Source of the DNA: an uncultured Flavobacteriaceae bacterium
GTDB taxonomy: Bacteria > Bacteroidota > Bacteroidia > Flavobacteriales > Flavobacteriaceae
NCBI GenBank assembly: GCA_947494825.1
Contig: CANLWN010000002.1
Location: forward strand, 248,001-312,000
Length of the DNA: 64,000 bases
Direction: 5' to 3'
Within the stretch, counting starts at the first letter, position 1. Each line of letters starts with the position of its first letter. Below, one piece after another: positions 12,573 through 24,175 of this stretch. The position numbers and the translations under genes were made by a program. A model generated the notes under the pieces. It searched no databases. It was given only the letters and a program-made list of their open reading frames with translations, and had not been told where the DNA came from.

Positions 12573-13754
12573 TCATTGTAGTACTGCCTGCTTCCATGGA
12601 ATTACTTTTCCTGTATAGAGCGCGTCCAAGCCCATTTGTACACATATAGCCGCTTTGGCTCCCGAAAACACATTGGATTCCGGGGTTTTATTATCCAGCA
12701 CACTATTCCTAAAATCAAGCAGGGCTTGTTTGCTGGGATCCAAATGCTCAACCTCAATGGGAACTCCCTTATTTTGCTCCCATTGGACGGTGGCCCCGGA
12801 AACCCCATCCACTTCGCCCAGTTCCTTTTTATCCCCGATCTTCTCAGGATAAAACCACGCCTTGGTATAATCTATGGTAATGGTCCCTTTATCGCCCAAT
12901 ATTGTAATCAAATAATCGTCCTTGGCATTACTGGTCAAACAGGTAAATTTGGCCCTTACCCCATGGGGGTAGGTATAAATCATGTGTATGTTGTCGTAGG
13001 TTTCCCTACCATCTTTCCAATAATCGACCCCACCATCGCCCATCACCTTTACAGGAACCGCATCGAGAACCCAATTGATCAAATCCAACTGATGAGAGCA
13101 TAGTTCGGCCAAAAGGCCTCCAGAATACTCCCGGTACATGCGCCAGTTGATCGCCCGTTCATATTCGGGACCGGGAACCGGCCTGCGCCAATCCGCATTT
13201 CTGTTCCACTGACATTCAATGGCCGTAATCTTGCCAACCTTTCCATTGTTGATCAAATCCACGATGTGGGAGTACAAGCGTGAGCTATGATATTGATGCC
13301 CGGTCTGAAAGATCTGCTTTGAACCAGAGGTCTTGCTGATGATGGCTTCAATGTCATCATAGCCCTTGGCCAGGGTTTTTTCGCAATAGACGTGCTTTCC
13401 CGCATCCAAGGCGTCCAGAGCGATTCGGGAATGGGTGTTGAACGGCGTAGCGATCAGCACGGCATCAATGTCCTTGTTATCCAACAGTTTCCTGTAATCG
13501 GAGTACGCGGCCGTTTTCCTGCCCACTTTTTTTAATCCGTTCTCCAATCTAAAGGGCAGTACATCACAGCATCCTGCCACGTTTAGCCCTTGGATATCGT
13601 TGATTATAGGGATAAGTCCGCCTCCCCTGTCCCCTGTTCCGATCACGCCTATGTTGACGCTCCGATTTTTGGAGAAATACGGCATGCCGGCACTCATGGT
13701 GGACACACCTGCCATGGCCACACCACTTTTGACTATAAACTCTCTTCGTTTCAT
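12573..13754 (-). CDS. Tat-exported Gfo/Idh/MocA oxidoreductase (copy 1)
   Basis: This 393-residue NAD(P)-dependent sugar dehydrogenase-type protein starts with a Tat-like leader (KRREFIVKSGVAMAG). The Rossmann dinucleotide site is VNIGVIGTGDRGGG (about 33-46). The usual EKP motif is EKTL here (about 124-127), a departure from the family consensus. The C-terminal alpha/beta domain has GGLLAELCSHQLDLINW, placing a His in the usual substrate site. It is the last gene of the nine-gene uronate operon, 78 bases after the second oxidoreductase. With that gene and the DUF1080 lipoprotein it may oxidise a sugar hydroxyl to a keto group in the periplasm; the substrate is not known. Confidence 0.88.
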   Translation of the reverse strand: MKRREFIVKSGVAMAGVSTMSAGMPYFSKNRSVNIGVIGTGDRGGGLIPIINDIQGLNVAGCCDVLPFRLENGLKKVGRKTAAYSDYRKLLDNKDIDAVLIATPFNTHSRIALDALDAGKHVYCEKTLAKGYDDIEAIISKTSGSKQIFQTGHQYHSSRLYSHIVDLINNGKVGKITAIECQWNRNADWRRPVPGPEYERAINWRMYREYSGGLLAELCSHQLDLINWVLDAVPVKVMGDGGVDYWKDGRETYDNIHMIYTYPHGVRAKFTCLTSNAKDDYLITILGDKGTITIDYTKAWFYPEKIGDKKELGEVDGVSGATVQWEQNKGVPIEVEHLDPSKQALLDFRNSVLDNKTPESNVFSGAKAAICVQMGLDALYTGKVIPWKQAVLQ

Positions 13755-13832
13755 TTGTTTAACTATTTAAATACGTACTGCCGTTTATTCCGAATCTGCC
13801 CTGCACGCTAAAGGGTGTTCATTTTTCAATCC

Positions 13833-15161
13833 CTATAAGCGTGGTTCCCATCCTTTGGCATATTCCCTGCTTAATTTATCCTTGATCTTAGCCTCATTGT
13901 TTATTTTCCTGGTCTTGGCCTCAAGGGTCAAGGTCTCTCCCATATCCTGGGCAAGGTTTCCCAAATGGCATAGCATCGTTGAAATGCTGGCATCCGAAAT
14001 AGGGGCGTTCAGCGGGGTATCTATGCGAATGGCGTCAAAAAAGTTCGCTATATGATTTGTGGTAAGTCCGCCGCCGCCGACTGTATCAATGGTGCCGCTT
14101 TTTTCCCTTTCAAATTCCTGCTTGATCAACTCTCCGCCAAGGTCATAAAACTCATAGGAGTTACGGCTCAAAGTGATGATACCCTTACTCCCGTAGATCG
14201 TTACCCCCCTACCCGGTTGTTTGGGCATGATCACCCCTCTACTATGACCGGTCCATGTTAAGGTCTTATTGCCTTCAAAGGTATAGGTTACCTGCTGGTT
14301 GTCCGCAAATTCCCAGTCGTCCTGGTAGGTGTACTTTCCACCAAAGGAAGTCACCGTCTCCGGGATATCCACACCCAAGGCCCAACGGCAAATATCAATT
14401 TCATGGGTTCCGTTATTGTGTATTTCACCGGTACCCCAATTGCGGAACCAGTGCCAGTTATAAGGGTGAATATTGTCCTTATATGCTCTTCGTGGAGCCG
14501 GGCCCTGCCATAATTCCCAATCCAAGGTGGTGGGTACCGGCACTTCCTTCCCAATACCAATAGATCCCCGATTGTTTGAATAATAGGCTTCACCTTTATA
14601 TACTTCACCAATAATGCCTTCCTGTATTTCCTTTATCGCTTTGATGGAAGTGTCTGCCGAACGCTGTTGGTTGCCCATTTGGACTATTTTATTATATTTT
14701 TTCTGAGCGGCGACCAAAAGTTCATTCTCATGGAGGTTATGGCTACAGGGCTTTTCAACATAAACATGCTTACCCGCCTGTAAAGCCATTATGGCCATGG
14801 GTGCATGCCAATGCTCCGGAGTAGCTATGAATACGGCATCTATGTCCTTATCGTCAAGAATTTTCCTAAAGTCCTTTTCCGTTTTGGGCACATAGCCGAT
14901 TTCCTTCTCGCACCACGCGTTGTGCGCTTCCAGTATGGTATCGTCCACATCACAATTGTATTTGATGTGGGCCTTTGTGTAATTTTTGATACCGGCAATT
15001 AGTCCTTTGGCCCTACTGCGCACCCCTATTACAGCTACCTGCAGGGTATCATTGGCCCCGAGTATGTTTGAAAATCCTACATTTGGCATTAGCGTTCCGC
15101 CCAAGGCCAGACCTGTGCTGCCCAAGCTGGTTTTTTTTATGAAATCCCTTCTTGTACCCAT
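13833..15161 (-). CDS. Tat-exported Gfo/Idh/MocA oxidoreductase (copy 2)
   Basis: This 442-residue protein has a clear Tat motif TRRDFIKK in its leader, then a Rossmann domain (LQVAVIGVRSRAKGL at about 40-54) with the canonical EKPCSHNL motif. The substrate domain contains WHWFRNWGTGEIHNNGTHEIDICRW with the conserved His residues. A twin-arginine signal implies folding with bound cofactor in the cytosol, then export, as for glucose-fructose oxidoreductase. The gene sits 9 bases after the DUF1080 gene. It is only distantly similar to copy 1, so the two probably act on different positions or on opposite legs of a redox pair. Confidence 0.9.
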   Translation of the reverse strand: MGTRRDFIKKTSLGSTGLALGGTLMPNVGFSNILGANDTLQVAVIGVRSRAKGLIAGIKNYTKAHIKYNCDVDDTILEAHNAWCEKEIGYVPKTEKDFRKILDDKDIDAVFIATPEHWHAPMAIMALQAGKHVYVEKPCSHNLHENELLVAAQKKYNKIVQMGNQQRSADTSIKAIKEIQEGIIGEVYKGEAYYSNNRGSIGIGKEVPVPTTLDWELWQGPAPRRAYKDNIHPYNWHWFRNWGTGEIHNNGTHEIDICRWALGVDIPETVTSFGGKYTYQDDWEFADNQQVTYTFEGNKTLTWTGHSRGVIMPKQPGRGVTIYGSKGIITLSRNSYEFYDLGGELIKQEFEREKSGTIDTVGGGGLTTNHIANFFDAIRIDTPLNAPISDASISTMLCHLGNLAQDMGETLTLEAKTRKINNEAKIKDKLSREYAKGWEPRL

Positions 15162-15170
15162 GACATTTTT

Positions 15171-16550
15171 TTAAAGTTGTTTGATTTTAATATTTCTAAA
15201 AGCTACCCTGTCCCCATGGTCCTGAAGTAGAATATTGCCACTATCTGCCTCTCCAAATTTAGGCCATTTTACGTACTTACTTTCCGAGACCAATTGTCTA
15301 TAGGCTTCGCTTTTACGTTCGTACTCCAGCACTTTTACCCCGTTCAACCAATGTTCTACATGATTGTTTTTTGAAATGATATGAGCCGTGTTCCAATCAC
15401 CTATGGGGTGCACAAGCTTATTGGTATCGGCCTGGATCAGATCGTACAAGGAACCGAGGGTTCTACTACCTTCGTGGTTACCTTTTTTGGCATCGGGATG
15501 ACGGGCATCATCCAATATTTGGAATTCAAGTCCTATGGACGAGCCTTCCCCTTTGTTCAGATCAGTGTTCACATAGTACTTAATACCGCTATTGGCGCCT
15601 TCGGTAATCTTAAATTCGAGTTTCACTTCAAAGTTGTCGTATTTTTTTTCTGTAACAATGTCTCCTCCGGCCTCGGCCTCTCCTCCCCCGGAGGACAGTA
15701 CAATCAGCTCCCCATTCTCGATGACCCATCCCTTCTCCGGAAAGTGTTCCAATTTGGCACCTCGCCATCCGTGGGTAGTGTTGCCGTCCCATAAGAGTTT
15801 CCATCCATCTTTTGCTTCGTGCTGTGTAAGTCTATTCTTGGTAACCATGGGCTCCAAAGGGGAGGGAGTGCTGTATTTTTCCAAGTCCTGGGTAAGTATC
15901 CGAAGCTTTCTCCATTTGATCTCGGTGCCTTCCTTTTGGTCTTCACTAATACTATGCACCTGCAATCCTATAAAACCGGTTGCCGTAGCATCATCGATAA
16001 GATAGGCCGCGGGCACCCCATTGATCCATGTCTTCAGGGTATCCCCAATGGCCTCGATCCGATAGTGGTTCCAAGCATTTTGTTTAAATGCCCCTTGCGC
16101 CGCTTTGTTTTCGGTCAACGGATTTAACCAGCCTCTCCTAGCCTCGTCATAAATGCCAGCGCTCCACGCCCTTTGGGAGGGGTCTATTTCAATTTGATAT
16201 CCGTGGACGCGGCCATCGTAATAATTGGGAATACTATTGCTCCTAACCTGGATTCCCGAATTCATGGTAGAGTCCACCAGATATTCAAGTTCCAAAATAA
16301 AATCGCCGTATAGCTCGTTGGAGGTAAGAAACGTATTGGGTGTACGGTGCACGGTAGTGCCAACAATGGCTCCGTCCGTTATTGCATATTTGGCCTCTCC
16401 TCCCTTAGTGGTCCATCCGTTCAGGGTCTTTCCATCAAATAGGGATACCCATGGAGCACTGTCTTTGGAAGCTTGGCCGCAACCAGCCAAGATGACCAAT
16501 GCAAGTAGTGTCAATACTGTTCTCGCGGTATATCGCTCTCGTTTTTTCAT
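15171..16550 (-). CDS. Lipoprotein with two DUF1080 (3-keto-disaccharide hydrolase-like) domains
   Basis: This protein of about 459 residues begins with a lipoprotein signal whose lipobox reads VILAGC, which is why I start at the ATG at 16550 rather than 16601. Two DUF1080 concanavalin-like domains follow. The first has [18 protein letters not shown] and [23 protein letters not shown]; the second has [38 protein letters not shown] and [21 protein letters not shown]. Members of DUF1080 such as those in the Bacteroides BT2157 region have been linked to cleavage of 3-keto-glycosides. It lies between the TRAP genes and the two Gfo/Idh/MocA genes, which fits an oxidise-then-cleave scheme. Two domains in one chain may reflect two substrates. 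Confidence 0.85.
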
Positions 16551-16590
16551 TTGTTCAGGTTTTAAAATCATTTGTGTTTGTCCATTAATG

Positions 16591-17886
16591 TTACAGGCCA
16601 AATATTCTTGGCAACCACAGGGATAACTGTGGAAAGTAGGTGATTAAAAAAAGGGCCGCCAGCATGACCAGGAATAACGGCATCAAAGGTTTTATTACAT
16701 TTTGAATGGAGGTCTTGGCGACACCTACCCCAACGAAGAGTACCGAGCCCACCGGGGGTGTGCAAAGACCGATGCATAAATTCAGGACCATGACGATTCC
16801 AAAATGCACAGGGTCCATGCCTAGTTTTGTGACGACCGGTAAGAAGATCGGTGTAAAAATAAGGACCGCTGGGGTAATATCCATAAAAACGCCTACCACC
16901 AACAATAGGAGATTTATAACAAGCAGTATCACAATGCTGTTGTCACTAATACCTAAAAGCACCGAGCTGATTTCCTGTGGAATATTTTCATAGGACAGGG
17001 CCCAAGACATACTCATCGATGCGCCGATCAACAGCATCACAATAGCTGTGGTACAGGATGAAACCAATAAAACCCTAGGCAAATTATCCATAGAGATTTC
17101 CTTGTACCAGAAACCTAACAACAGTGTATACAATACGGCTATCGCGGAAGCCTCGGTAGCCGTAAAAATACCCGCTACTATTCCGCCAATAACAAGGATC
17201 AATAGGAACAAACTGGGCAGAGCCTCCACAAAGGTTTTGATTACTTCCTTCAGCGAGCTTCTTTTCCCAAGCTTAAATCCCTTCTTTTTTGCCCAAAGAG
17301 AGGCCACCACCATTAACAACAAGCCGGTCAAAATTCCCGGAATATAACCTGCAAGGAACAAGGCCGCAATGGACACGCCTCCGCTGGCCAGGGAATAAAC
17401 GATCAATATATTACTGGGGGGTATGATAAGCCCAGTGGTCGCCGAAGTGATGTTGATAGCGGCACCGAATCCTTTGGAGTACCCTTCCTTTTCCATTTGA
17501 GGGCCTAGAATACTACCCATGGCAGAGGCCGATGCCAGGGCCGATCCCGCAATGGCCCCCATAAGCATAGCACCAATTACGTTGATCAAGGCTAGTCCGC
17601 CCGGAAGTGACCCCACTAAGGTTTTTGCAAAGGCGATCAATCTATGGGCAATGCCACCTTTATTCATCAGTTCCCCGGAAAGAATAAACAAGGGTATAGC
17701 CAACAGGGCAAAACTGTCCAACCCCACCCCTATTCGCTGCGAAATGGTAGTAAACGCCGGTAGCGCTGGAATACTGACCAAAATGGTCAATAAGGCCGAT
17801 ATGGCAATACTCCATGCAATGGGTGTTCCGATGGCCAGCAGGCCAACAAAGCTTAGGATCAACATCAGGATGGGTATATATTCCAT
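16591..17886 (-). CDS. dctM: TRAP transporter large permease (DctM)
   Basis: This 431-residue, roughly twelve-helix protein is the ion-coupled translocation subunit of a TRAP transporter. Family features include [65 protein letters not shown], and [16 protein letters not shown] near the C-terminus. It ends about 40 bases before the DUF1080 start and starts 4 bases after the small permease. Position beside uxaC and uxuA indicates a hexuronate or uronate-oligosaccharide substrate. Confidence 0.95.
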
Positions 17887-17890
17887 AAGG

Positions 17891-18349
17891 TTATTTGGTT
17901 AAAATATCTGAAATTTTGTAGTACATGATAAGCATTCCACTAAGGGGCATGACCAGATATACCAGGGCCAGCGGTAGCTTGAGGGCCGGTGAATATTGTT
18001 CCAGAATAAAGGTCAGGTACACCAATCTGAAACCACCGATCACCAGGGCAAAAAAGGCAAATGACATGACAATGACAGTGACCAGACGACGTAGTTTCCT
18101 TTGTTTTTTTGTATTGAGTTTCTTGGGAAGAAAATCTATGGCAACATGGGCGTTTTGTCCCGAAACATAGGCCGCCCCCAAAATACCGAGCCAAATCATC
18201 AAGTATCTTGACAGTTCGTCGGTGAAGGAACTTGGAGCCCCCAGGATATATCTGCTAAAGACCTGCCATAGCACATTAAGGACCATCAATGACATGATAC
18301 CCATTAAAAGTCTAGAGAGTATACGGTCTATTTTATTGCGGATCATCAT
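17891..18349 (-). CDS. dctQ: TRAP transporter small permease (DctQ)
   Basis: This 152-residue protein has four hydrophobic helices and the DctQ pattern: FSRYILGAPSSFTDELSRYLMIWLGILGAAYVSGQNAHVAIDFLPKKL, with the conserved W and G-A-A segment, then a C-terminal YLVMPLSGMLIMYYKISDIL helix. It partners the large permease in the inner membrane. It is separated from dctP by a single base and from dctM by 4 bases, so the three subunits are coupled. Confidence 0.93.
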   Translation of the reverse strand: MMIRNKIDRILSRLLMGIMSLMVLNVLWQVFSRYILGAPSSFTDELSRYLMIWLGILGAAYVSGQNAHVAIDFLPKKLNTKKQRKLRRLVTVIVMSFAFFALVIGGFRLVYLTFILEQYSPALKLPLALVYLVMPLSGMLIMYYKISDILTK

Positions 18350-18350
18350 C

Positions 18351-19334
18351 TTAATGGGTTGATTGAATTTTCTTTATCAGTTCGTCTATCTCTTTATCCT
18401 GCCTATAATTATCGTATACCGTGTTTATCTTTTCGATAAACAATTGTTTATCTGGCCGAATTATTTTTACTCCTGCTTTTTGAACTTCTTCCAGTGCTTC
18501 CCTTTCCGATTCTTGCCATAATTTTCGCTGATAGGAAATAGAATTTTTGACAACGGTATTTAGCCATTCCTTTTCTTTTTCCGTGAGCCTGTTCCATAAA
18601 TGTGTCCCGGCCACCAGTACATCGGGAACAATGGTATGTTCGTCCAAAGTGTAATATTTGCAGACCTCATAATGCCTGGATAGATAAAAACTGGGAGGAT
18701 TGTTTTCAGCACCATCTATTACACCCTGCTGCAAGGAGGTATATATTTCGCCCCACGAAATGGGTGTCGGAGAACCCCCAAGTTGCCGAACCATGTCTAT
18801 TGCCGTTTTACTTTCCTGTACCCGGATCTTAAGCCCCTTTAGGTCATCTGGTGCATTTATGGGCTTGTCCTTGGTATAAAAACTGCGACTGCCCGAATCG
18901 TAGTATCCCAATCCCCGGAGCCTAAATTTTTTGCAATCCTCCAGAAGTTCTTTCCCAAGGGAGCCGTCAAATATATTGAAGGCATGCTGTCTGTCCCGAA
19001 AGAGAAAGGGAAGTCCGAAAACCCGCATCCTTGGTGAAAAATTTTCCATTACCGCACCGGATACCTTGGTCACATCCAAACTTCCGATCTGTAAAAGTTC
19101 TAGGCATTCCCGCTCCGTGCCCAATTGCTGGTTGGGATAAATTTTTATGCTAAGTTTTCCATCGGATATCGCTTCCAGATCCTCTCCCATTTTAACCATG
19201 GCCAAATGCACGGAATGATTCACATCAAGGCCATGGGCCAAACGAATGGTCTTGTCCTCCGGCCCCTTATGGCAGCCCAAAAGGACAACTAAGGCCAGGT
19301 ATAAGAAAAGAAATCCCGTTTTGTTACCCATCAT
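18351..19334 (-). CDS. dctP: TRAP transporter substrate-binding lipoprotein (DctP)
   Basis: This protein of about 327 residues captures the substrate outside the inner membrane. A lipoprotein signal (LYLALVVLLGC) is present, which favours starting at one of the tandem ATGs at 19334/19331. The longer frame begins with TTG at 19409 in a four-base overlap with uxaC and would put 25 extra residues before the signal. The mature part shows IRLAHGLDVNHSVHLA, the KIYPNQQLGTEREC strand, and LKGLKIRVQES with the Arg that binds a substrate carboxylate in DctP proteins, then QQGVIDGAENNPPSFY. A carboxylate ligand such as glucuronate fits the neighbours. Confidence 0.9.
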   Translation of the reverse strand: MMGNKTGFLFLYLALVVLLGCHKGPEDKTIRLAHGLDVNHSVHLAMVKMGEDLEAISDGKLSIKIYPNQQLGTERECLELLQIGSLDVTKVSGAVMENFSPRMRVFGLPFLFRDRQHAFNIFDGSLGKELLEDCKKFRLRGLGYYDSGSRSFYTKDKPINAPDDLKGLKIRVQESKTAIDMVRQLGGSPTPISWGEIYTSLQQGVIDGAENNPPSFYLSRHYEVCKYYTLDEHTIVPDVLVAGTHLWNRLTEKEKEWLNTVVKNSISYQRKLWQESEREALEEVQKAGVKIIRPDKQLFIEKINTVYDNYRQDKEIDELIKKIQSTH

Positions 19335-19405
19335 ACCGGTTTTAAAATTTCGGATAAACCTAATCCAACTTCCATTGATATCACCATTTTCCCTATTTAT
19401 ATTCC

Positions 19406-20815
19406 TCAATCGAATTCGAAATATTTTTTTGCATTGTAATAGGATATGTCCTTAACAATACTTCCTACTAGATTTATATCCTGCGGCAGTTCACCCATCT
19501 CCATTTCCTTACCCAATAAATTGCACAGTATGCGTCTGAAATATTCATGTCTGGGAAAGGACAGAAAACTACGGGAATCGGTCAGCATGCCAATAAAACA
19601 ACTAACCAAACCTATATTGGACAGGGCATTCAATTGGTTGGTCATGCCATCCTTTTGGTCCAAAAACCACCATCCGGGACCAAATTGCACCTTGCCCTTT
19701 ACAGATCCATCGTTAAAATTCCCGATCATACTGGCCAATACCTCATTATCCGAAGGATTAATGTTATACAGAATCGTTTTCGCCAATTTGTTGTTACGGT
19801 CCAGGGCGTCTAAAAAAGCGGACAGGCCCTTCGCCTGTTGAAAATCGCCAATGGAATCCCACCCAGTATCGGGACCTAGTGCATGTAACATTCTGGAGTT
19901 ATTGTTCCTAAGGGCCCCCAGGTGAAATTGTTGTACCCACCCATACTCGTGGTATTTTTCCGAGAGAAAAAGCATAATCGCACTCGTGAATTGCCTTATT
20001 TCCTTCTTCTTCAATGCTTTTCCTGATCGTCTTTTATCGAAAACAGCAGCAACCTTACGATGTGGGGCGATTTCAAAGGGTATATTTTCCAAACCGTGAT
20101 CCGCCAACTTGCATCTGTTGGCATTGAAATAAGCTATGCGCTTGGCCAACACCTCACAAAGGGCATCATAGGAATCAATTTCCGTATCTTCGGTTTCTCC
20201 CAGATCTTCCATATAATCGTTAAAGCCCTCATCACTTATGTGAATGGCCTTGTCCGGTCTAAAAGAAGTCCCTACCTTGATTTCAAAATCGCTCGTTGCC
20301 AAGCTTTGGTGGTGTTTCAAATCGTCAATGGGATCCTCCGTAGTGCATACCACCTCCACACCCATGTTACGGAGCAGGCCTTGACAGCTATTTTCGGAGG
20401 CTGCCAGTTGTGCTGTAGTGTTTCTATAAATGGCTGCCGCATTACCGGCATGGAGCAGTTCACGAATCCCAAAATAACGTGCCAACTCCAGATGGGTCCA
20501 ATGGAAAAGGGGGTTTCTAAGTGTATAGGGTATGGCCTCGGCCCATTTTTTGAACTTCGCTTCATCCGAAGCGTTCCCCGTGATATATTTTTCAGGGATT
20601 CCCAAGGTGCGCATGGCACGCCATTTGTAATGGTCGCCGGCGATCCAGGCCTCGGTGATGTTGGTAAAATTTCGGTTGTTGGCAATAGCTGCAGGCGATA
20701 GGTGACAATGGTAGTCTATAATAGGTAATCCCTTTGCATACTCATGATAGAGTTCTTCGGCGAACCTATTGTGCAACAAAAAGTTTTCGTTTATGAATGA
20801 TGGTATCTTGCCCAT
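19406..20815 (-). CDS. uxaC: Glucuronate/uronate isomerase
   Basis: This 469-residue amidohydrolase-fold enzyme converts D-glucuronate to D-fructuronate (or galacturonate to tagaturonate). The family start NENFLLHNRFAEELYHEYAKGLPIIDYHCHLSP carries the HxH metal site (YHCHL, about 36-40). Also present are LELARYFGIRELL, EVVCTTEDPIDDLKHH, MLHALGPDTGWDSIGDF and FGPGWWFLDQKDGM. Length matches UxaC. It sits between uxuA (22-base gap) and the TRAP transporter, catalysing the first cytosolic step after uptake. Confidence 0.96.
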   Translation of the reverse strand: MGKIPSFINENFLLHNRFAEELYHEYAKGLPIIDYHCHLSPAAIANNRNFTNITEAWIAGDHYKWRAMRTLGIPEKYITGNASDEAKFKKWAEAIPYTLRNPLFHWTHLELARYFGIRELLHAGNAAAIYRNTTAQLAASENSCQGLLRNMGVEVVCTTEDPIDDLKHHQSLATSDFEIKVGTSFRPDKAIHISDEGFNDYMEDLGETEDTEIDSYDALCEVLAKRIAYFNANRCKLADHGLENIPFEIAPHRKVAAVFDKRRSGKALKKKEIRQFTSAIMLFLSEKYHEYGWVQQFHLGALRNNNSRMLHALGPDTGWDSIGDFQQAKGLSAFLDALDRNNKLAKTILYNINPSDNEVLASMIGNFNDGSVKGKVQFGPGWWFLDQKDGMTNQLNALSNIGLVSCFIGMLTDSRSFLSFPRHEYFRRILCNLLGKEMEMGELPQDINLVGSIVKDISYYNAKKYFEFD

Positions 20816-20837
20816 GGTTATTAGCGTATTCTATGGG

Positions 20838-22025
20838 TTAGTCTTCGTTTTTCCATTCCCTGAGTATTCCTTCTTCCAAGCCTCTTAGCTCAGCAAGGCC
20901 TCTGAGCCTGCCGATGCATGAATATCCTGGATTGGTCTCTTTTTGTAGGTCGTCCATCATCTGATGCCCATGATCTGGCCGCATGGGGATATGGATATCT
21001 GCCCTCCCATTTTCAAACCGACGTTCTTGCTCCTGGAGCACCAGCTTTACCATTTTGTACATATCGGTTTCACCTTCCAAATGATTGGCTTCATAGAAAT
21101 TTCCATGCGCCACTCTTTTGATATTCCTGAGATGAAGAAAGTGGACTCGATCGCTGAATTGCCCAAAAATACCCTCCAGGTCGTTGTCTGCCCTGACGCC
21201 CAAAGAACCTGTACAGAAGGTAATACCATTGTGCAAAGAGGGTACCGCTTTGAATATATGGGCATAGTCTGCCCCGGTGCTCAAAATCCTCGGTAGGCCA
21301 AAGATCGAAAAGGGCGGGTCATCCGGGTGTGCGCACAGCAATACACCTACCGTTTCGGCCACCGGGACCACCTCGGAGAGGAAATGCACCAAATGTTCCT
21401 GCAATTTGGTTTTGGAAATATTTTTATAGGTTTCAAGTGCAGCTCGAAAATGTGCTATGGAATAACCCTGTTCAGCTCCGGGCAACCCGGCAATAATGTT
21501 TTGGGTAAGTTTTGCAACATCCTCCTTGCCCATTGCCTCATAAAACATCCGCGCCCTGGAAATTTCCTCGGGTGAACATTCCTTTTCCGCTCCCGGTCTT
21601 TTCAAAATATGCTGGTCAAAGGCCAAAAGCGCATCCCTTTCAAAGGCCAGGGCTTTGGAGCCATCGGGCATATCGTAATCCAAGGAGGTCCGTGTCCAGT
21701 CCAAAACCGGCATAAAATTGTAACAGATAAGCTTTATATCACAGCGGGCAAGGTTCCGTATGCTTTGCTTGTAGGTCTCAATATACTGTTGGAAACCCTT
21801 GGTTTGGGTCTTTATCGCCTCGTGCACGGGTACCGATTCCACAACAGACCATGATAATCCTTCTGCCTGGATCATTTTCTTGCGCTTCTCGATTTCCTGA
21901 ACAGGCCATACCCCGCCATTGGGAATATGGTGTAGGGCCGTGACAATACCGCTAGCTCCGGCTTGCTTAACATCTGAAAGGGAAACCGGGTCATTTGGCC
22001 CATACCATCGCCATGTCTGTCTCAT
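20838..22025 (-). CDS. uxuA: Mannonate dehydratase
   Basis: This protein of about 395 residues dehydrates D-mannonate to 2-keto-3-deoxy-D-gluconate. It has the UxuA opening [34 protein letters not shown], the [17 protein letters not shown] segment, [18 protein letters not shown] with metal-binding His/Cys positions, and [16 protein letters not shown] near the C-terminus. Length is typical. I prefer the ATG at 22025 (second Met) over 22037, though both are possible. It follows the SDR gene closely, so reductase and dehydratase are cotranscribed. Confidence 0.96.
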
Positions 22026-22039
22026 CTTCCGTTCCATAG

Positions 22040-22855
22040 TTATACTCCGCTAAACACACTAAAACCCCCATCAATGGGAATGACGGCCCCTGTTACAAAT
22101 TTAGAGGCCTCACTGCACAAAAAGTGCAGGGCACCGTTAAGCTCTTGAGGTTCTCCAAAACGTCCCATGGGCGTATTCCTGATGATTGCCTCCCCCCTTT
22201 CCGTAAACGACCCATCTGCATTGATGAGCAATTTCCTATTCTGATTTCCGATAAAAAAACCAGGTGCTATAGCGTTTACCCTAATTTCATTACTGAATTT
22301 GGTGGCCATTTCAACGGCCATCCAGCGCGTAAAATTTTCCATGGCGGCTTTGGAAGCCGAATACCCGGCCACCCGTGTAAGCACCCTAGGGACAGACATG
22401 GAAGAGTAATTGACGACGGCACCGCTGCCCTGATCGGCCATAGCTTCGCCAAAAATCAAGGAAGGTACTACCGTACCGTTCAAGTTTAGTGCGGTTACTT
22501 GGTTAAAATCTTCTATGGACAGATCAAAAATGGTCTGGTCAGGACCTATGGTAGCACCGGGCATATTGCCACCTGCTGCGTTTAAGAGTATATCTAACCG
22601 GCCATATTTTTCCAGCACGGTGGTTCTTATCGCCTCCATAGAAGCCTTGGAGAGAATATCACCCTCCAGCACCAATAATTCCCCGCCTTTGGATCTGATT
22701 GCTTTCCCAAGTTCCCGACATTTCCCTTTATCGCGGGTCAGCACGATTAATTTTGCACCTCCAGACGAGAGGCTCAGGGCAGCGGAACTTCCGAGTACCC
22801 CTGTTCCTCCAGTAATAACGGCAACCTTATTTGTAATATCAAAAATTGACTTCAC
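22040..22855 (-). CDS. SDR-family oxidoreductase, probable fructuronate reductase
   Basis: This 271-residue short-chain dehydrogenase has the NAD(P) motif TGGTGVLG (about 15-22), NAAGG (92-96), the catalytic Ser near 151-152, and YSASK (Tyr165, Lys169), with a C-terminal GGFSVFSGV typical of the subfamily found beside uxuA in Bacteroidota. In that context it should reduce D-fructuronate to D-mannonate, replacing the classical long-chain UxuB, which is absent. It is the first gene of the operon, and its start faces the LacI-type regulator. The reductase role is inferred from gene context. Confidence 0.88.
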
Positions 22856-22913
22856 CGCTGTGGATTTTTCGTTATGAATTACAATATCCCTAAGACCTCA
22901 TAGATATATGCGA

Positions 22914-22921
22914 CAAACATA
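22914..22921 (-). promoter_or_regulatory. -7 promoter element of the uronate operon
   Basis: On the minus strand this reads TATGTTTG, a TAnnTTTG match about 60 bases before the first gene of the operon. No -33 TTG is found at the usual distance. Confidence 0.5.
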
Positions 22922-22994
22922 GGTGCTCGGGACGCCTATTTTGGGTCAGCATCCTCAACCATCCTCTAGGTTCTGGTACGATTACCAAAATTTT

Positions 22995-23008
22995 CGTGTG
23001 CGCACACG
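22995..23008. promoter_or_regulatory. Perfect 14-bp palindrome, candidate operator for the LacI-type regulator
   Basis: CGTGTGCGCACACG is its own reverse complement, with a GC centre like LacI-family operators, and is flanked by T-rich and A-rich bases. It lies in the 249-base gap between the divergent uronate operon and the regulator gene, about 97 bases before the regulator start and about 75 bases upstream of the operon -7 element. Confidence 0.6.
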
Positions 23009-23104
23009 ATAAAAGTAAGGATTGCGCTTGCATTATACAAACTGTAGGGTCAAAAAAGCACGAAATTTAACGGAAGGTCGTATATTAATGCTTTATTTCG
23101 GAGC

Positions 23105-24175
23105 ATGATTACGATTAAAGAGATTGCGAAGTTGGCTGAGGTTTCTCCCGGCACCGTGGACCGTGTCATACACAATAGACAAGGGGTTTCCGAAAAAACG
23201 GCGAAAAGAATTCGGGGAATTTTGGAGCAACACAACTTTAAGGTAAACCGTATTGCACAATCTCTTGCTCTGAAAAAAAAATATACCATAGCGGTGTTAT
23301 TGCCGGATTCTGATGACGAAAATCTATTTTGGAAATCCCCTTTGGAAGGTATTTGCAAGGCCAAAGACGAACTAATACCCTTTGGGGTGACCGTGGAGAC
23401 CTTTTTCTTTGATCAGAAAGATTCCCGTTCGTACATCAATTCATTTAAACTACTTCTGGCGATTAAACCACAGGGGGTAATTCTGGTGCCTACCTTTAAG
23501 AAGGAGACTGAAGAACTGACCAACACCTTACGGCAGCGGGAAATCCCCTTTAGTTTTTTGAATATTTCCATAAACGGATACGGCAATCTTTCCTTTATTG
23601 GCCAGGATGCATTTAAAAGCGGGGTTTTGGCAGGAAAACTGATGGGGCTGTGTATGGGTCATAAAGTCGATGTGCTCACCGTTCATTCCAGGCCCAATCT
23701 GTCGAATTTCAATAACATCTCGGAGCGGATAAAGGGTTTTGACCATTATTTTGAGGTCAATGATCTTAAAAACACCAATCACTATTTGGAATTAGAGGAT
23801 TTCGGAAATGCCGAACGCGTAAGGGGGAGCATTTCGGAAATCTTGCTCAAAAATCCTGAAATAAAGGGGATTTTTGTTCCGAACAGCCGATCGCATATCA
23901 TCGCAAACCTACTACATGGGTTAGGAAACCCAAAGCCTTTCTTAATAGGTTTTGATATTACGGAACACAATGCAAAAGCCCTTACCGATGGTAAAATCAC
24001 TTTTTTGATTTCCCAAAAACCGGTTGCACAAGGGTATAGGGCTATCGAAACACTCGCTAAGTTTTTGTTGTATAACAGAAAACCGTCTTCGCAAATTTTA
24101 TCGCCCATAGAGATTATCACCAAGGAAAACCTCCCCTATGCCGACCAAAAGAGAGATAGCTTGTTGTCTTTTTAG
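23105..24175 (+). CDS. LacI-family transcriptional regulator
   Basis: This 356-residue regulator has an N-terminal LacI helix-turn-helix (ITIKEIAKLAEVSPGTVDRVIHNRQGVSEKTAKRI at about 2-36), a hinge helix region (RIAQSLALKKK), then a periplasmic-binding-protein-like sensor domain (YTIAVLLPDSDDENLFW, GVILVPTFKKE, IKGIFVPNSR, FLIGFDITEHN). It is divergent from the uronate operon and probably controls it, with a hexuronate or KDG-like inducer. It may also control itself and the esterase/GH20 genes downstream. The effector is an inference from context. Confidence 0.93.
   Translation: MITIKEIAKLAEVSPGTVDRVIHNRQGVSEKTAKRIRGILEQHNFKVNRIAQSLALKKKYTIAVLLPDSDDENLFWKSPLEGICKAKDELIPFGVTVETFFFDQKDSRSYINSFKLLLAIKPQGVILVPTFKKETEELTNTLRQREIPFSFLNISINGYGNLSFIGQDAFKSGVLAGKLMGLCMGHKVDVLTVHSRPNLSNFNNISERIKGFDHYFEVNDLKNTNHYLELEDFGNAERVRGSISEILLKNPEIKGIFVPNSRSHIIANLLHGLGNPKPFLIGFDITEHNAKALTDGKITFLISQKPVAQGYRAIETLAKFLLYNRKPSSQILSPIEIITKENLPYADQKRDSLLSF

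Follow-up and report, generated by a model that had tools for sequence, protein, structure and literature searches.

Why should genes for two oxidoreductases of the Gfo/Idh/MocA family (Gfo) and a protein with two DUF1080 domains share an operon with genes that import and degrade uronates? The question is raised by a stretch of 64,000 nucleotides (the window, positions 248,001 to 312,000 of contig CANLWN010000002.1, assembly GCA_947494825.1) from an uncultured Flavobacteriaceae bacterium with a genome of 4.54 Mb. Does the operon serve uronate catabolism? Are the DUF1080 and Gfo genes tied to that function, or only placed beside it? By what chemistry might their products act, and on which sugar ring? 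The answer towards which we lean, with some reserve, is an operon under LacI control for uronate-containing glycosides, most likely glucuronides, which would be cleaved by oxidation, elimination, hydration and reduction.

Nine open reading frames, all on the minus strand, run from 12573 to 22855. In the order of transcription they are SDR (short-chain dehydrogenase/reductase), uxuA, uxaC, dctP, dctQ, dctM, a tandem-DUF1080 lipoprotein-like gene, GfoB and GfoA, with gaps of 2, 22, -4, 1, 4, -11, 9 and 78 bp. This bears out the nine tightly spaced minus-strand genes of an earlier, sequence-only reading of the window, which set the right-hand limit at 23008, a position that takes in the promoter region; the boundary of the rightmost gene is 22855. 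A correction applies to the DUF1080 gene, whose listed TTG start overlaps dctM; an ATG near 16550 is likelier and turns the overlap of 11 bp into a gap of about 40 bp. Families were assigned with Pfam and NCBIfam profiles against curated cut-offs, arginine-pair (RR) and lipobox-like leaders were read by eye, and the roles of residues follow PMC7660916 (papers are cited by PMC number). The features are as follows.

12573 to 13754, minus strand: GfoA, Gfo/Idh/MocA oxidoreductase, 393 aa, twin-arginine leader; proposed 3-keto-uronate reductase or second 3-dehydrogenase
13833 to 15161, minus strand: GfoB, Gfo/Idh/MocA oxidoreductase, 442 aa, twin-arginine leader; proposed glycoside 3-dehydrogenase
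15171 to 16601, minus strand: tandem DUF1080 (PF06439) lipoprotein-like protein, likelier ATG near 16550; proposed lyase and hydratase
16591 to 17886, minus strand: dctM, TRAP large permease (TIGR00786, 441.9 against a cut-off of 268.45)
17891 to 18349, minus strand: dctQ, TRAP small permease (PF04290)
18351 to 19409, minus strand: dctP, TRAP solute-binding protein, lipobox-like leader; R175, R196, N236
19406 to 20815, minus strand: uxaC, glucuronate isomerase (NF002794, 606.5 against a cut-off of 387)
20838 to 22037, minus strand: uxuA, mannonate dehydratase (TIGR00695, 574.4 against a cut-off of 199.55)
22040 to 22855, minus strand: SDR, D-mannonate oxidoreductase (fructuronate reductase) (NF006132, 352 against 281)
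22994 to 23009, no strand: perfect 16-bp palindrome TCGTGTGCGCACACGA, proposed LacI operator
23105 to 24175, plus strand, divergent: LacI-family regulator (PF00356, PF13407)

The gene content reported earlier also stands. It comprised two Gfo/Idh/MocA proteins with twin-arginine translocation (Tat) leaders, a lipoprotein with two DUF1080 domains and a complete TRAP transporter together with uxaC, uxuA and an SDR. The NAD-binding and C-terminal Gfo/Idh/MocA domains of GfoA and GfoB score over the cut-offs, and each protein starts with an RR-x-F-I motif, on which export by the Tat route is proposed. PF06439, the family of 3-keto-disaccharide hydrolases, matches the DUF1080 protein in two stretches (299.2 bits against a cut-off of 26.8), resolved by the genome search into one match of 165.6 bits and another of 144.8 bits, and a lipobox-like leader suggests a lipoprotein. 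DctP carries such a leader as well, a point to be added to the earlier description.

The case for uronate catabolism is straightforward. With 352 bits the SDR clears the cut-off (281 bits) of NF006132, a subfamily of D-mannonate oxidoreductases, which refines its assignment, and UxaC, SDR and UxuA together would therefore convert glucuronate to 2-keto-3-deoxygluconate (KDG). The kdgK and kdgA genes lie outside the operon, elsewhere in the same genome (L186; handles beginning with L denote loci and those with G genomes), and are 89% and 74% identical to relatives. Thus UxaC, UxuA and a D-mannonate oxidoreductase, all above their cut-offs, are found with KdgK and KdgA in one genome. The transporter is represented by DctP, DctQ and DctM, and 4MHF and 4N91 are among the relatives of DctP with solved structures. 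Both are D-glucuronate binding proteins, 4MHF binding galacturonate also, and the site of one glucuronate solute-binding protein uses Arg150, Arg170 and Asn210 (PMC7660916). In DctP the two arginines and one asparagine of this site are matched by R175, R196 and N236, a correspondence made by pattern and spacing and not via a structure of this DctP; none of the three varies among the 18 aligned sequences, that of the window included. These residues support a role of the TRAP system in D-glucuronate import, and the operon almost certainly serves uronate import and catabolism. The earlier proposal that a released uronate is taken up by the TRAP transporter is backed in this way for the import step, whilst the chemistry of release is plausible on the basis of protein family.

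Genes for myo-inositol oxygenase (MIOX) occur in or near the uronate operons of relatives (L012, 3311-5771; L145, 18088-18948). The window's own genome carries MIOX at L187 (8564-10974), apart from the operon, and a sodium symporter stands beside MIOX in both L012 and L187. UxaC may also receive glucuronate that derives from inositol.

Two sets of sequences inform on the tie between this catabolism and the DUF1080 and Gfo genes. One comprises the loci of the best 80 of 351 tandem-DUF1080 relatives, several stretches of which end at contig ends. The other is a sample of 149 genomes of the same family, the window's own included, not chosen for DUF1080. In the sample uxaC is present in 66 genomes, tandem DUF1080 in 49 and GfoA in 28; a control search places PF06439 in at least 95. 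Ten of the 56 tandem-DUF1080 genes (9 of 55 without that of the window) lie within 10 kb of uxaC when 0.34 would be expected, a Poisson probability of 4e-12 assuming uniform placement in 4 Mb genomes. None of the 56 is within 10 kb of xylA, the control. Among the 80 loci, 34 have at least one of uxuA, uxaC and dctM together with the tandem DUF1080 gene, and nine have the strict set of uxuA, uxaC, dctM, GfoB and GfoA. Of the 80, 76 encode a GfoB-type protein, which in 73 lies no more than 300 bp after DUF1080; 43 of these 73 adjacent proteins are at least 60% identical to that of the window, the rest less. GfoA is found in 31 of the 80.

The second line of evidence is a shared operator. The perfect palindrome TCGTGTGCGCACACGA, located between the LacI gene and SDR, is the sole match in the window at up to three mismatches (0.11 expected) and the sole exact match in its own genome, where allowing three mismatches gives three places for the motif against four for a reversed control. 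A full LacI homologue occurs in 8 of the 80 loci. Seven of these eight have a 14-15/16 operator match within 320 bp, and in the remaining one, L063, a 15/16 match is somewhat farther off, in front of SusC. The exact core, CGTGTNCGNACACG, has 11 sites in 8 of the 49 tandem-DUF1080 genomes, and the reversed control has 0. Eight of the sites are at uxu promoters, two are upstream of tandem DUF1080 and one is elsewhere. The two in front of DUF1080 are within about 100 bp of the gene, in G136 and G005. The former is not independent of the L067 record; in the latter lacI is divergent, the neighbourhood is free of uxu genes and uxaC is found on other contigs. The chance of at least two of the 11 sites falling within 300 bp upstream of the 56 genes is about 4e-7, although both of these sites also adjoin lacI.

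Inspection of the 80 loci extends this result. A 13-15/16 operator match at -350 to +75 relative to the start of the DUF1080 match is seen in five (L048, L067, L029, L060 and L026), which is reached by none of 100 letter shuffles per stretch; the other 75 are without such a match. L029 and L067 each have two sites, one before sdr and this one between lacI and DUF1080. In L048 and L026 the operator precedes the DUF1080 unit and lacI was not found in the stretch. The L063 site stands before SusC-SusD-DUF1080-GfoB with lacI divergent. Three sites are seen in the genome of L026. Two differ from the core by a single base: one separates lacI from uxuA, close to kdgA-kdgK, and the other, on another contig, precedes a DUF1080-GfoB pair. 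The third is inside an unrelated open reading frame (L207). L060 was considered as a separate DUF1080 unit and dropped, since its DUF1080 gene heads a run that continues into sdr-uxuA-uxaC-dctPQM. With local clustering around uxaC and an operator shared by separate DUF1080-GfoB units, the association goes beyond adjacency, and the DUF1080/Gfo module is very probably linked in function to uronate catabolism. The operator also predicts, as a sequence-derived guide, which unplaced DUF1080-Gfo pairs serve uronates.

An exact CGTGTNCGNACACG core at about 6925 in L212, before a PhoD-like phosphatase gene, is probably there by chance. A regulator of NUDIX/NrtR-AraR type replaces LacI beside sdr-uxuA in 12 of the 80 loci (cluster c10; L009, 2978-3673), a family call that rests on the L009 member only; many of these loci are from Allomuricauda or Flagellimonas.

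What chemistry might the module provide? The DUF1080 protein BT2157 is termed a 3-ketotrehalose hydrolase, and in Caulobacter a DUF1080 gene near the lactose 3-dehydrogenase matters for lactose use (PMC9007349). BT2158 has been called a periplasmic glycoside 3-dehydrogenase (PMC11300592), and a beta-eliminase that acts on 3-keto glucosides, unrelated in sequence to DUF1080, has been characterised (PMC10628242). A whole-length relative with a solved structure is the tandem DUF1080 protein 4jqt (E 5.9e-168), a putative glycosyl hydrolase whose entry name gives no specific function. Across 81 DUF1080 proteins the two domains are about equally conserved, with 97 of 186 and 119 of 222 columns at or above 95%. 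Single-domain proteins of solved structures resemble domain 2, whereas for domain 1 the tandem 4jqt is the sole close match. Since both are similarly conserved and differ in their structural relatives, each domain may be a working site, perhaps for elimination in one and hydration in the other.

The sequences nearest to GfoB among solved structures are 8tdf and 8tdh, titled glucoside-3-dehydrogenase AL3; 8tdf matches with an E of 3.5e-29 and 27% identity over 367 aligned residues. For GfoA the top solved match is a myo-inositol 2-dehydrogenase, and its predicted structure has a mean pLDDT (predicted local distance difference test) of 77.2. An EK(P/T) motif, E125-K126-T127 and E136-K137-P138, is invariant in 27 and 30 alignment rows, and its lysine presumably has a functional role in Gfo proteins.

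The following sequence of events is proposed. GfoB in the periplasm, with NAD tightly held, would oxidise the terminal ring at C3. Elimination of the aglycone and rehydration of the glycal so formed would fall to the two domains of the DUF1080 lipoprotein, one reaction each, after which GfoA or GfoB would reduce the 3-keto sugar back. Because of this last step the cycle would be redox-neutral and need no supply of exported cofactor, as with the tightly bound NAD of glucose-fructose oxidoreductase. DctP could then pick up free D-glucuronate and DctQM carry it into the cell, where isomerisation to fructuronate, reduction to mannonate and a final dehydration would yield KDG. We judge it likely that the glycoside is cleaved by 3-oxidation and elimination. 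That the oxidised ring is the uronate itself is close to evenly balanced, inclining a little to doubt. Still more tentative is the full picture of a dedicated periplasmic oxidative glucuronidase, in which two NAD-holding Gfo proteins and a fused lyase-hydratase feed the TRAP transporter without a glycoside hydrolase, and LacI also commands detached modules in several relatives, including some with SusCD.

Several observations weigh against this proposal. Neither Gfo protein reaches the cut-offs set for the Bacteroides enzymes. Against the BT_2158 glycoside 3-dehydrogenase profile (NF058561, 750 bits) GfoB scores 160.7 and GfoA 96.7, and against that of the BT_2159 disaccharide 3-dehydrogenase (NF058563, 650 bits) GfoA scores 35.4 and GfoB 31.5. 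The earlier attempt to tie DUF1080 and Gfo proteins to uronate use gains from the uxaC clustering and the LacI operator; it is the proposed chemistry of 3-oxidation and elimination that loses here. However a Gfo protein beside DUF1080 elsewhere in the same genome (L188) also falls short of NF058561, with 313.6 of 750 bits, which suggests that the cut-offs are strict and say little on function, although we caution that this judgement was made without a passing control protein. Comparison of folds fails to split 3-dehydrogenases from other Gfo enzymes. Alignment with 8tdi gives Z values of 33.0 for GfoB and 34.2 for GfoA (rmsd, the root mean square deviation, 5.5), tied with many other Gfo enzymes; with DgpA, an anhydrofructose reductase and an oxidoreductive sulfoquinovosidase among the tied leading rows, the comparison was discarded as a test of enzyme type. 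Sulfoquinovose, which those matches brought into consideration as a substrate, was set aside because the operon encodes uronate enzymes. In Bacteroides, deletion of BT2157 or BT2158 led to no defect on raffinose-family sugars (PMC11501099).

The genomic evidence has its own weak points. All 49 tandem-DUF1080 genomes have uxaC, yet 47 of the 49 have xylA, so co-occurrence at the level of genomes reflects lifestyle and was rejected as evidence. The check on co-occurrence in other Flavobacteriaceae that had been suggested earlier therefore gives an unspecific answer for whole genomes and a clear one for local clustering with uxaC. With one mismatch allowed, the reversed control of the operator occurs 26 times in 8 genomes and the motif itself 14 times, and for this reason only exact or well-placed sites are counted; the exact operator is absent from 41 of the 49 tandem-DUF1080 genomes. 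In G005 and L063 lacI diverges from the same promoter as the DUF1080 unit, and autoregulation of lacI could explain both sites. No uxuA, uxaC or dctM is present in 46 of the 80 DUF1080 stretches, some of which are short, and only 10 of 77 UxaC loci from other genomes hold a tandem DUF1080 gene. Related loci that carry MIOX point to another supply of glucuronate for UxaC.

How else might the locus be explained? The oxidised ring could be a neutral sugar and the uronate a mere leaving group, as in a glucosyl- or galactosyl-uronate, making this an ordinary glucoside or galactoside 3-keto system. The resemblance of GfoB to the AL3 glucoside-3-dehydrogenase points that way, as do the identity of 19% that the glucuronide-3-dehydrogenase 8tdi shows to GfoA and to GfoB in the fold alignments and the 46 loci without uronate genes. 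Of those 46, 24 carry a conserved neighbour family, c0, which, going by its letters, may be a methionine sulfoxide reductase; there are also glycan loci with SusCD, GH92, GH115 or GH78-type genes, the families being named from representatives. Handling of a 3-keto uronate is a better fit, however, to the reductase-like GfoA that accompanies the module, within 5 kb of 24 of the 56 tandem-DUF1080 genes, and to L176, where GfoA without GfoB heads a uronate operon. We regard a neutral ring as unlikely, though a serious contender. It is improbable that oxidative cleavage plays no part, with the Gfo proteins epimerising or oxidising free uronates or inositols and DUF1080 acting as an ordinary glycosidase or binding protein. 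The myo-inositol 2-dehydrogenase match of GfoA and the MIOX and symporter genes of L012 and L187 would suit such a scheme, and one DUF1080 protein is reported as an endo-xanthanase/lichenase (PMC9007349). Against it, leaders of the export type are seen on both Gfo proteins and DUF1080 but not on UxaC and MIOX, which are presumed cytoplasmic, and the pairing of GfoB directly after tandem DUF1080 in 73 of the 80 loci is one known from 3-keto systems.

Finally, a general 3-keto glycoside module might simply have come to lie behind a uxaC-dctPQM core by rearrangement. Counts for the 77 UxaC loci, several of which end at contig ends, lend this some substance: dctM is present in 44, GfoB in 6 and GfoA in 3, and just 6 of the 44 with the uxaC and dctM core have tandem DUF1080. 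The DUF1080/Gfo module is accordingly a recurring accessory and not a fixed part of these loci. In a quick tree of the 81 DUF1080 proteins (four rows unlabelled), in which the rows closest to that of the window are from Allomuricauda/Flagellimonas, the uxu label changes 13 times against 25.6 in shuffles; it is clustered, and the association is thus partly shared descent. On the other hand the supported branches of this quick tree force at least three gains or losses of the uxu genes, the clustering with uxaC is far above expectation with none near xylA, and the operator is shared with separate DUF1080 units. Rearrangement as the whole explanation is very improbable, and oxidative cleavage of a uronate-containing glycoside is the account that we carry forward.

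Much of this account has precedent. The association of TRAP transporters with uxu genes is already known, as is that of Gfo with DUF1080 and, by the title of a structure, the oxidation of glucuronides at C3. The BT2156-BT2160 cluster of Bacteroides and the Alistipes AL3 system likewise combine an exported Gfo dehydrogenase with DUF1080, to oxidise and then cleave (PMC9007349, PMC11300592, PMC11501099). Here, in contrast, DUF1080 is doubled in one protein, the Gfo scores are far below those cut-offs (160.7 against 750 and 35.4 against 650) and the operon is shared with TRAP and Uxu genes. The PDB entry 8tdi, titled 'P2B11 Glucuronide-3-dehydrogenase' and known to us by that title, has the Gfo fold in common with GfoA and GfoB in spite of the low identity, and its title provides the precedent for oxidative attack on glucuronides. 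Hexuronate TRAP systems with uxaC/uxuAB (Apre_1383, 4N91; Bpro_3107, 4MHF; STM3169) offer relatives of DctP, the same binding residues and a transporter beside catabolic genes, but DUF1080/Gfo cleavage genes are not mentioned for them in the excerpted text (PMC7660916). For Caulobacter, too, a coupling of periplasmic 3-oxidation to DUF1080 cleavage has been proposed, although there the oxidation falls to the membrane-bound LacABC (PMC9007349).

The combination of these elements in one operon, together with a shared LacI operator, appears new. The layout was not found described among the open-licence papers listed, in the excerpts consulted. The earlier claim of an unfamiliar arrangement holds to that extent, and is weakened by the precedent of 8tdi. 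A 2024 Nature paper reportedly describes the stepwise breakdown of glycans by oxidation and elimination. In the proteome of a Maribacter, a Gfo/Idh/MocA protein of unknown function peaks on arabinogalactan and its locus also expresses mannonate dehydratase (PMC11036162), which by analogy would be in line with the proposed cleavage of uronate glycosides. Many glycans of plants and algae bear uronic acids. If flavobacteria do release them by a 3-keto route, then screens for glycoside hydrolases miss part of this breakdown, and the operator offers a handle by which testable substrates can be put forward for the large DUF1080 family, few members of which have known specificities.

Some further loci merit description. 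L035 (443-15850) has DUF1080-GfoB-GfoA facing SusCD, GH115 and a GH92-type gene, then a six-hairpin glycosidase-type gene, and is likely to be a locus for a glucuronate-bearing glycan. In L013 (11403-12290), L044 and L083 a xylose-isomerase-like TIM barrel, the family being called on the L013 member only, is placed between DUF1080 and GfoB. The window's own genome has two more DUF1080 loci. At L188 (6553-8759, C3) a DUF1080 gene is paired with a BT2158-like Gfo protein. At L189 (7085-12536, C4), the GMC-oxidoreductase and DUF1080 locus of this genome, a single DUF1080 stands with a Gfo protein and an IolE-like TIM barrel that scores 57 bits, short of the cut-off. Beyond the operon itself, a same-strand open reading frame 116 bp past its end resembles mazG.

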